64,000 nucleotides of DNA, from contig CAITZM010000177.1 in NCBI GenBank assembly GCA_903896925.1, positions 1-64,000 on the forward strand, given 5' to 3'. This document shows positions 12,487 through 15,266 of the stretch, one piece after another; positions within the stretch are counted from its first letter, which is position 1, and each line of letters begins with the position of its first letter. Source of the stretch: an uncultured Lentisphaerota bacterium. GTDB lineage: Bacteria > Verrucomicrobiota > Kiritimatiellia > CAIQIC01. The notes under the pieces were generated by a model, which did no database searches, was not told the DNA's origin, and was given only the letters and a program-made list of their open reading frames with translations. Position numbers and translations under genes: made by a program.

Positions 12487-13953
12487 ATGAAACATACCCG
12501 CGCCGATGAGCAGCGTCCGGCAGCGCCAGCAGGCGACCAGGCGCCCGCCATCTTTTCGGTCCGTCATGTCGATGGACAGCCGCTACTGAGCCGGCGATCG
12601 TTTTTCGAACTCGCCGTGGCGCTGGCGGGGACAGCCGCTGTCTCCAGCCGGGGTGTGCAAATACGTACCCTGCAGAGCATGCGTCCTGCACTGGCGCACA
12701 GCGAGCCGGTCACGGCGCTGGCGGTCAACGCTTCCGGGCGGTTGCTGGCTTCCGGCGACAAGGGCGGGACTATCAAGGTGTGGCAGCTGCCCGAGGGCGC
12801 GCTGTTGAAATCTTGGACCGAGTACCAGTCTCCCATCACGGCGCTCGCTTTTCCTCATCTGGACGACACGCTGTGGTCGCTTGACACATCCCGCGCGCTG
12901 AAAGCATGGCGGCTGCCCAGCGGCACGAAGCTGGCTACGGCTGACGGTATCCGTGAGCGCGGAAACCTCGGCGCTTTGTTGGCGGTGCCGAGTGCCGGAG
13001 TCTGGTATGCCATGCAGGCCGACGAGCGCGTGGAACTGCGCAGTCAAGCGGACGGTGAGCTGCTGACCGCGCTCGGTGGTTTGGACGACAAAGCAAGCGC
13101 CTTGGCTGCGACCCCTGACGGCCACGTGTTGATGGTGGGCGGTGAGCACGGAAATTTGGGCCTGTGGGTCGAGTCCCAGGGCAATCGCCTGCAAACGGTC
13201 AAGACAGGTTCCGCGACAGTGTCGGCGCTGGCCTTGGCGCCGAATGGCACGCGGGCTTTGAGCCTGCACGCTGACGGAGTCTTGCGAATCTGGCATCTGC
13301 CCGAACTACGCGCCGGAACCGTGTTTGAGTCCACCCTCGGTAAGCCCTGCTCCGGCGCCATTCGACCGCAACTGGATTATTTCGCGGTAGGCAGCGAAGA
13401 GCCGCGCATCGGTTTGTGGGGTCTGGCTGCTTCAGGCGTCAAGCCTAGGTTGCTGGAGGGGCATGTGGCCGCGGTACGCGCGCTGGCCATCACGCCGGAC
13501 GGGTCGCTGCTGATCTCCGGCAGTGACGACAAGACCATCCGGCTTTGGTCATTGCCGGAGGGCAAGCCGCTGCGAAACCTGGTGGACCTGGCAAGCAACT
13601 ATAAAAGTTTCGATGGCATGAGTTATAAGGGCATGGATGTCTATGGGCGACTGGTTGTCTTCACGTTGCCTTGCGGTTCTCCCCTTCCTCCCGGAGCGGT
13701 ATGCGCCTGCAACTGCGTCCCGGGCTCGCTCGAGATTCCCCGTTCTCATGCGCAGAAGTTCAACACGGAGGGCTACTGCTCCTGCGATCTGGTCTGCACT
13801 TGTAACTTGGTCCCCGCGGGTGCGGAGGAAGGCCGGGGCTTTCTCGGCGGCCGTGGCAACCGCAGGCCCAGCAGTCCGGGCGGCAGCAGCAGCCGGACCT
13901 ATTGTTCCTGTGTCCCGGTCTGTACCTGTCAAAGCGTCGTCCGCAACTACTAG
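12487..13953 (+). CDS. Tat-exported WD40 propeller with 12-cysteine C-terminal tail
   Basis: This 488-residue protein has a twin-arginine signal (SRRSFFELAVALAG, RR at 36-37) after a 34-residue cytoplasmic-type lead. About seven WD40 blades fill residues 65-385, for example VTALAVNASGRLLASGDKGG with IKVWQLP, and LLISGSDDKTIRLWSLPEG. From about 390 the character changes: residues 396-481 hold 12 cysteines arranged as C-x-C pairs (396, 406/408/410, 431/433, 437/439, 473/475, 479/481). The unit YCSCxxVCTCxxV occurs twice, at 430-442 and 472-484. The propeller itself has only one Cys. A radical SAM/SPASM enzyme starts 20 bp downstream, so the tail is probably its substrate. Function is not known; the tail could carry thioether crosslinks or bind metal. 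Confidence 0.85.
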   Translation: MKHTRADEQRPAAPAGDQAPAIFSVRHVDGQPLLSRRSFFELAVALAGTAAVSSRGVQIRTLQSMRPALAHSEPVTALAVNASGRLLASGDKGGTIKVWQLPEGALLKSWTEYQSPITALAFPHLDDTLWSLDTSRALKAWRLPSGTKLATADGIRERGNLGALLAVPSAGVWYAMQADERVELRSQADGELLTALGGLDDKASALAATPDGHVLMVGGEHGNLGLWVESQGNRLQTVKTGSATVSALALAPNGTRALSLHADGVLRIWHLPELRAGTVFESTLGKPCSGAIRPQLDYFAVGSEEPRIGLWGLAASGVKPRLLEGHVAAVRALAITPDGSLLISGSDDKTIRLWSLPEGKPLRNLVDLASNYKSFDGMSYKGMDVYGRLVVFTLPCGSPLPPGAVCACNCVPGSLEIPRSHAQKFNTEGYCSCDLVCTCNLVPAGAEEGRGFLGGRGNRRPSSPGGSSSRTYCSCVPVCTCQSVVRNY

Positions 13954-13973
13954 GCCGTACAGGAAGCCCCGTG

Positions 13974-15266
13974 ATGGATGTTCATTTCATCCCCTTTCAT
14001 GGACGGTATTTAATCTACCGTCCGCTCAGGCACTTGGCTTTCATCGGTAACCAGGCCTTGGTGGACTATCTGCGGGGTCGGGCTGAACAGTCGGCCGGCA
14101 CACCGGTGCAACCGGATATTGAAGCCTTCTTGGATCGGGCAGCGTACTGGGCACCCGATCACGTGCCCGCCCATTCCGCCCAGACGTCAGCCGCGCGTCC
14201 CTCCATGGCTGTGCTGCTGATGACCAACCGCTGTAACCTGGCCTGCACCTACTGCTATGCCGCTGCGGGCAACCAGCCGCCCGTGGACCTGCCGTGGCCT
14301 CTGGCGAAGCAGGTGATTGATGCGGCCGCGGACAACGCGCAATCCAACGGCGACACGCACTTCGGCTTGTCCTTTCACGGGGGTGGTGAACCGACGCTGA
14401 ACTGGTCCATCCTGACCGCCGCCGTGGCCTACGCGCGCGCCAAGGCCTTGCCCTGCAAGGTGTCGCTGGCCAGCAACGGCCTCTGGTCGCAGCGGCTGAG
14501 CGCCTTTGTTTCTAATAACATCGATGCGGTGACGCTCTCTTTTGACGGTGTACAGGCCGTCCAAAATGCGCAGCGCCCCCGCCGATCCCGCCGGGGCTCC
14601 TTCGCCAGCGTCCTCCGGAGCATTCAAGCCCTCGACGCCGCCGGGGTGAATTACGGCGTGCGGATGACCGTGACGCCCGCCGCCCTTGACCAACTTGCAG
14701 AAGGCGTGCGGCTGTTGTGCTCTGAAACCGGCGTGCGCACCATCCAGATCGAGCTTTCGTTTACGGTTGCGCGCGGCGTGTATGCCGACCCCTCCATCGC
14801 GGATGGCGAACGTTTTATCGCGGCCTTTCTGGCAGCGACCCGGGTCGCTGCTGAATATGCTGTCGATGTGTCCTATTCGGGTGCACGCCCCTGGGTGCTG
14901 GCCCATGCGTACTGTCTGGCGCCCACCCAGGCGCTGATTGCCACCCCGGAAGGTCGTCTGGTCGCTTGCTTCGAGGCGGCGGGCACCGACCATCCCTATG
15001 CACGCGAATTCACGATCGGGCATGTCACCGCGAGCGGTGTTGAACGCGACCCCGCCGCGTATGGTGCCTTCCTGCAGCGGCAGGAGACGCGCCGTGCGGT
15101 CTGTACAGGCTGCTTCTGTTTCTGGCATTGCTGCGGAGATTGCGTGTCGCGGGCAATGGTTTCGAGCGCGCCGTCATCCGCACGCTGTCACATCAATCGT
15201 GAGATCACCAAGGCTCTGATCGCTGAGCTTATTGAGCATGGCGGAGGCGTGTGGCAGGGAAACTAG
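13974..15266 (+). CDS. Radical SAM/SPASM-type peptide-modifying enzyme
   Basis: This 430-residue enzyme starts at the ATG at 13974 with a ribosome site AGGAAG at 13961-13966. An N-terminal segment of about 75 residues (VHFIPFHGRYLIYRPLRHLA) resembles the substrate-recognition leader of peptide maturases. The radical SAM core has the cluster motif CNLACTYC (C87, C91, C94) and the GGGEP SAM-binding motif in SFHGGGEPTLNW. The C-terminal part has cysteines for auxiliary clusters: C314, C332, then C377, C380, C382, C386, C387, C390 in CTGCFCFWHCCGDC, and one in ARCHINRE. Such enzymes install thioether or C-C crosslinks on ribosomal peptides. The preceding Cys-rich WD40 protein is the obvious substrate. 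An anaerobic sulfatase-maturase role is less likely. Confidence 0.85.
   Translation: MDVHFIPFHGRYLIYRPLRHLAFIGNQALVDYLRGRAEQSAGTPVQPDIEAFLDRAAYWAPDHVPAHSAQTSAARPSMAVLLMTNRCNLACTYCYAAAGNQPPVDLPWPLAKQVIDAAADNAQSNGDTHFGLSFHGGGEPTLNWSILTAAVAYARAKALPCKVSLASNGLWSQRLSAFVSNNIDAVTLSFDGVQAVQNAQRPRRSRRGSFASVLRSIQALDAAGVNYGVRMTVTPAALDQLAEGVRLLCSETGVRTIQIELSFTVARGVYADPSIADGERFIAAFLAATRVAAEYAVDVSYSGARPWVLAHAYCLAPTQALIATPEGRLVACFEAAGTDHPYAREFTIGHVTASGVERDPAAYGAFLQRQETRRAVCTGCFCFWHCCGDCVSRAMVSSAPSSARCHINREITKALIAELIEHGGGVWQGN

Follow-up and report, generated by a model that had tools for sequence, protein, structure and literature searches.

Cysteine-rich tails on Tat-exported proteins and their partner radical SAM/SPASM enzyme: a candidate RiPP-like maturation system

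The window (a 64,000-nt stretch from an uncultured Lentisphaerota bacterium) carries a pair of adjacent genes on the forward strand; all features below lie on this strand. The first (positions 12487-13953; start ATG at 12487, stop TAG at 13951-13953) encodes a Tat-exported WD40 protein of 488 aa with a C-terminal Cys tail, the proposed substrate, as judged by sequence, Pfam and AlphaFold2 (AF2). It has a twin-arginine motif (SRRSFF, R36-R37) and, after it, a hydrophobic stretch; these two features define a Tat substrate. The signal RRSFFELAVALAGTAAVSSR is encoded at 12592-12651; the RR and the following F/L are kept in full-length relatives, in which the Pfam TAT_signal match is weak. Ahead of it lies a leader-like n-region, DQAPAIFSVRHVDGQPLLS (12535-12591), with P20 located 16 residues before R36. 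The WD40 beta-propeller body (12682-13596, supported by Pfam at E 7e-27 and by AF2) is the variable part of the family and is replaced by other domains in relatives. The tail begins with a core, TLPCGSPLPPGAVCACNCV (13663-13719, four Cys), that is conserved across the motif-scan loci. It continues with repeat 1, YCSCDLVCTCNLV (13774-13812, residues 430-442), near-identical in the tails of loci L134 and L139, and repeat 2, YCSCVPVCTCQSV (13900-13938, residues 472-484), both of which match the pattern YCSCxxVCTCxxV. There are 12 Cys in the tail (C396 to Y488) and a single further Cys in the propeller (GKPCSG). In the AF2 model the propeller (residues ~66-370) has high pLDDT, and the N-terminus and tail fall below 50; the n-region and tail are thus predicted by the model to be disordered.

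The second gene (13974-15266, 430 aa) encodes a radical SAM/SPASM enzyme, the proposed tail maturase, supported by profiles, AF2 model and fold match and placed in clade A by the gene tree. Its ATG (13974) lies 20 bp past the WD40 stop codon and is preceded by an AGGAAG ribosome site at 13961-13966. The radical SAM cluster motif CNLACTYC (14232-14255, residues 87-94; Pfam Radical_SAM 55.2 bits) contains a CxxxCxxC that is invariant in 26 aligned members, and the same alignment shows seven invariant Cys in the SPASM region (14913-15188; C314, C332, C377, C380, C386, C390 and C405). The enzyme therefore has the CX3CX2C motif and 7-Cys SPASM region of thioether maturases such as PapB, SCIFF maturase and QhpD. 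These gene-pair features (the Tat/WD40 protein of 488 residues, the 12 tail Cys with two repeat units, the one propeller Cys, and the downstream enzyme gene with its own ribosome site and auxiliary-cluster Cys) had been described previously from sequence alone, and all of them held. The genome of the window encodes one such tail and one clade A enzyme, adjoining each other.

Among NCBIfam profiles the best match of the window enzyme is PapB (105.6 bits, cut-off 340); other top profiles are the nif11, SCIFF, DynA, CefB and QhpD maturases, and YhhB scores as well. Membership in a curated maturase family was ruled out, with best scores of 105.6-154.6 bits against cut-offs of at least 340. The AF2 model of the enzyme is of high quality (pLDDT 90.7, pTM 0.90), and its top fold match in the PDB is CteB (5wgg/5why; TM 0.70-0.74, E 1e-17, whole-length alignment). 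The fold expected of a thioether maturase is thus present, with CteB ranking first; anSME, TigE and SuiB are also among the matches. The N-terminal region (13974-14141) has a bbb-aa secondary structure in the AF2 model, the shape expected of a recognition domain, and we tentatively consider it a candidate leader-binding (RRE-like) domain. A profile-profile comparison of this domain with PqqD-like proteins gave no match. In one related locus (L218) a PqqD-domain gene adjoins the pair (Pfam 50.7 bits). Small proteins are also encoded beside some other clade A enzymes (L210:7282-7749, L216:7191-7724, L211:5714-6202 and L261:7349-7822, in addition to L218:6871-7539); only the L218 protein is PqqD by Pfam, the remaining four are merely similar-looking, and several of the five carry RR-x-F motifs.

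In a set of 56 related genomes, the closest enzyme (30% identity) adjoins a 199-aa Tat protein that lacks WD40 and ends in TLPCGSTIPDGWICTCNCV plus CxC units. In Ereboglobus sp. PH5-10, from another part of the phylum, two genes for Tat-WD40 proteins, both with this tail, come after the enzyme gene. Based on these tails we derived a core motif, CG-x(3)-P-x-G-x2-C-x-C-N-C, for a single scan of about 85,000 species genomes, which returned 85 stretches in 12 named phyla. All are of this tail type except L096, a chance motif match in a 45-codon frame that was rejected as a tail locus. The core consensus is TLPCGSPIPxGAVCTCNCV, followed by C[TS]C repeats. Some invariant core residues are imposed by the search pattern itself; T393, P399, A404 and V411, although left free in the pattern, are conserved at 90% or more. 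The number of Cys per tail ranges from 4 to 22 and is even in 80 of 93; CxC pairs hold 776 of the 895 tail Cys. Beyond the core, the middle residue of CxC is Thr or Ser in 207/250 pairs (83%). A reversed-pattern control gave zero matches in 388 genomes. A low-complexity or frameshift artefact is ruled out by conservation of the core across phyla. Viral contigs yielded just generic radical SAM matches, nearly all at 22-32% identity, and phage records yielded none at 1e-25. One scan stretch (L163:3571-3615) belongs to a tail remnant of 62 codons with no Tat signal or body, in an Opitutaceae genome (G423) where a clade A enzyme was not found; it looks as if it may have decayed once the enzyme was lost.

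A clade A radical SAM gene is found on the same strand within 2.5 kb of the tail gene in 57 of 84 loci (counted inside an 8-kb stretch), usually directly adjacent and often overlapping or less than 100 bp away. This confirms the proposal in the preliminary description that tail homologues would have such a gene nearby. Most of the remaining tail loci have a clade A enzyme elsewhere on the contig or in the genome, and tail proteins are sometimes distant from the sole enzyme of their genome (L123/L124/L131/L133 and L108/L130/L155). No clade A enzyme was found in the genomes of five tail loci (L109, L138, L159, L163 and L166); most tail genomes without the enzyme are incomplete bins, short contigs or contig ends. 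The L138 genome, a Prevotellaceae bin, encodes a Cys-tail WD40 protein and six tandem radical SAM genes (L193:113-7537), none of which is clearly clade A.

The reverse search, by enzyme profile, covered 1,035 genomes (400 Chloroflexota, 388 of the window's phylum and 247 Acidobacteriota) and gave enzyme matches in 20, so that the enzyme is rare (about 1-4% of sampled genomes). Matches reached 380 bits in 18 genomes, and a Cys-tail protein is encoded in 17 of these, beside the enzyme or elsewhere; in the sole exception (G738) the sequence ends at the enzyme gene. The 17 include G260 with a minimal tail of one CxC followed by an S74 domain. Variant tails lacking the CGSP core were seen in G167, G885, G215, G839 and G860. 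The two matches at 335-341 bits have no Cys-tail protein and possibly belong to a sister family. Orthologous enzymes beside unrelated peptides, which would have counted against the pairing, were not seen: the Cys-tail proteins are adjacent or in the same genome. The pairing data meet the RiPP definition of a gene-encoded precursor with a dedicated modifying enzyme. On this genomic evidence the tail protein is very likely the substrate of the clade A enzyme; the modification itself is inferred.

The n-regions of these proteins share an element ahead of the Tat RR. The motif P-x-[IVL]-[YFVHL]-x-[VLIP] occurs in 72 of 87 distinct n-regions, with a Pro-to-RR spacing of 16 residues in 63 and 17 in 7; in shuffled n-regions the mean was 1.5 and the maximum 8. 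Its short form is P-x-[VI]-[YF]-x-V (P20-A-I-F-S-V25 in the window protein), and it is common to WD40 and non-WD40 tail proteins. A leader-only search of 11 genomes with a 25-residue profile of the element gave 32 strong matches and one marginal match, and it recovered tail proteins. At the inspected loci every intact complete ORF with the element ends in the Cys tail; where no tail was seen, the ORF was truncated by the end of the locus, the gene was a frame-shifted copy of a tail gene, or the wrong ORF had been picked. Taken together, the forward, reverse and leader-only searches rule out chance pairing. RiPP maturases generally use leader elements of this kind. From its conservation and fixed spacing alone, we infer that the n-region element may act as a RiPP-like leader recognised by the enzyme. 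The preliminary description had missed this conserved element and had taken the propeller to stand in place of a leader, a view corrected by the leader-like element in the Tat n-region.

A WD40 match is found in 62 of 86 tail ORFs. The other bodies include SH3_3, GH43_C2/LamG-like and NBR1-type Ig domains, and one tail protein of 109 aa (L114) has almost no body at all. Since these different or near-absent bodies occur, the propeller is considered just one of a set of interchangeable bodies. WD40 was rejected as the feature that defines the family, and the propeller is not its essential part, which corrects the earlier view. Three parts stay constant: the tail, the Tat signal, and the leader-like element in front of the twin arginines. 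In several substrates (L097, L098, L139, L150 and L151 among them) a lipobox-like Gly-Cys follows the Tat signal; it is absent from the window protein, and these substrates could be membrane-anchored forms. In some relatives (L209:9432-11204, L191:9718-12798 and L122:3623-6685) a peptidase S74 (endosialidase chaperone-like) domain comes after the tail, identified by a Pfam match in L209 and recognised by sequence in the other two. Its self-cleavage would possibly leave the tail as the mature C-terminus. In Caballeronia NK8 a related enzyme adjoins a Tat protein with CSC/CAC/CVC units. On a Methylocystis iwaonis plasmid a 28%-identical enzyme (L262:5860-7314) adjoins a free 128-aa peptide (L262:7347-7733) with 19 Cys, many of them in CxC pairs, and without Tat signal or body. 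This free-peptide form may be ancestral.

The gene tree of the radical SAM proteins has three clades, A (including the window enzyme), B and C; the nearest clade A relative of the window enzyme is at L128 (45% identity). Tails with a YW[YH]PN-like end occur together with B/C enzymes: 36 loci have both, 32 neither, 7 the YWxP end only (several of these are cut stretches) and none B/C enzymes only. The Fisher p value of 2e-14 for tail end versus enzyme set is uncorrected for descent. On the tree there are about four changes, and the independent pairs are concordant in 3/3. The covariation is consistent; with about three independent changes it is not independently significant. The window tail has no YWxP and the window genome no B/C enzymes (best other match 72 bits); YWxP ends are present in the nearest tail relatives (L134 and L139) and at the locus of the nearest enzyme relative. 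A third, shorter radical SAM protein (~345-390 aa) recurs in Chloroflexota clusters (L091:3763-4830, L103:2114-3286 and L261:2435-3466), and the L091 protein has MoaA/viperin-like profile matches.

We favour the reading, with a probability of about 0.6, that the two genes are part of a RiPP-like system in which Tat-exported folded proteins have their Cys tail modified. A substrate/enzyme pair resembling a ribosomally made and post-translationally modified peptide had been suggested in the preliminary description; genomics supports it, while the modification remains inferred and metal binding is not excluded. The architecture, the pairing across phyla and the covariation of tail type with enzyme set are shown; leader binding, thioether chemistry and the order of events are inferred. 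In the proposed pathway the precursor would start with a long Tat n-region that contains a conserved strand-like element; the Tat signal and a folded body would follow, and the Cys-x-Cys tail at the end would be unstructured. The cytoplasmic clade A enzyme would bind the n-region element, probably via its N-terminal domain, and would modify the tail, most likely by forming thioethers that join Cys thiols to nearby carbon atoms. The folded and tailored protein would then be exported by the Tat pathway. Two points favour thioethers. The enzymes closest by profile and fold are mainly thioether makers, and what is conserved in the tail is Cys, with Thr/Ser between the pairs; in the absence of chemistry data this is an inference towards which we lean only modestly. 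No dedicated protease or transporter was seen beside the pairs in the loci read. A surface anchor, an adhesive, or a metal/redox tail are possible final roles.

Several known systems resemble this one in part. QhpD belongs to the same broad group of radical SAM/SPASM enzymes, and its target is a subunit of a protein, not a short peptide: it introduces Cys cross-links into QhpC, the gamma subunit of quinohemoprotein amine dehydrogenase (PMC8172795). Its profile, however, gives only 60-140 bits against a cut-off of 453. The substrates proposed here do not resemble QhpC, being Tat proteins that carry CxC repeats on a variety of bodies, and the loci read showed neither amine dehydrogenase genes nor a qhp operon. 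The SCIFF maturase CteB, which links Cys to Thr (PMC10352776), shares the best fold match, the 7-Cys SPASM region and a Cys-rich substrate, but the SCIFF profile scores 83-135 bits against a cut-off of 425, and its substrate is a short six-Cys peptide (ranthipeptide) rather than a large exported protein. The ranthipeptide maturase PapB makes Cys-Asp/Glu thioethers (PMC9413430) and supplies the best profile for the window enzyme, but its cut-off is missed, and its precursor and motif are unlike those found here. Sortase-type C-terminal tails are likewise short conserved tags on unrelated bodies; here no sortase-like gene or transmembrane tail was seen, and the partner is a radical SAM enzyme. 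The motif strings CTCNCVPG and CGSPIP were absent from the open-access literature searched (subscription and unpublished work were outside the scope), and no paper on radical SAM enzymes with WD40, Tat or propeller found there bears on the system. No curated family or paper describing the system was found in NCBIfam and the literature searched; it is possibly a new form of RiPP-like maturation by radical SAM enzymes and stands a fair chance of deserving a class of its own.

Four alternatives were considered. The best surviving one is that the tail is modified by another chemistry without thioethers, such as C-C or C-O cyclophanes, epimerisation, or oxidation of Thr/Ser/Asn. This is possible: SPASM enzymes of similar fold (anSME, TigE, SuiB) catalyse varied reactions, the DynA and YhhB profiles score too, and the YWxP end looks fit for aromatic cross-links by B/C enzymes. 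Against it, the closest profiles are mostly of thioether makers and the dominant conserved tail residue is Cys. The second alternative is a metal-binding tail (metallothionein-like or cluster-binding), with the enzyme acting on something other than the tail Cys. CxC, CTC and CSC are typical thiolate ligand patterns, and most tail Cys (the 776 of 895 given above) lie within CxC. This reading cannot be excluded but is unlikely: it leaves unexplained the near-obligate radical SAM partner, the leader-like element and the way in which the tail end covaries with the presence of additional radical SAM enzymes. A bare metallothionein would need no radical SAM enzyme, and metallothioneins are small, cytosolic, Cys-rich proteins, in contrast to the 488-aa Tat protein of the window. 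The third holds that the body is only a carrier from which the modified tail is released after export, to act as a free antimicrobial or signal peptide. The self-cleaving S74 domain directly after the tail in some relatives and the free CxC peptide of Methylocystis speak for it. We regard it as improbable: cleavage by S74 would set free the C-terminal side while the tail stayed on the body, the pairs have no protease beside them in the loci read, and the bodies are real domains. Finally, neighbourhood hitch-hiking without a functional link could account for a lone pair in one genome, but the pair recurs in 12 phyla, keeping its strand and spacing, and the enzyme is present in so few of the sampled genomes that this alternative is all but excluded.

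Returning to tail tailoring as the preferred reading, a bolder version of it, on which we would not quite bet, is a hitherto undescribed, portable modification system in which the Tat n-region doubles as a RiPP leader. One clade A enzyme, joined optionally by B/C enzymes that handle the YWxP end, could then tailor the Cys-x-Cys tail of any folded exported body, and many phyla would have envelope proteins with a cross-linked C-terminal tail. Most of what is known of radical SAM maturases concerns short peptides. The proposed target in this system is the tail of an exported, folded protein whose body can be swapped, and the element for recognition appears to lie within the secretion signal. If true, this would provide a general tag by which radical chemistry could be placed on folded proteins before secretion, and at least 12 phyla would possess a new class of envelope proteins. 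Directly testable enzyme-substrate pairs include those of strain Ereboglobus sp. PH5-10 and of the enrichment-cultured Candidatus Chlorohelix allophototropha. RefSeq names the members of the latter cluster merely "radical SAM protein", "WD40 repeat domain-containing protein" and "hypothetical protein".
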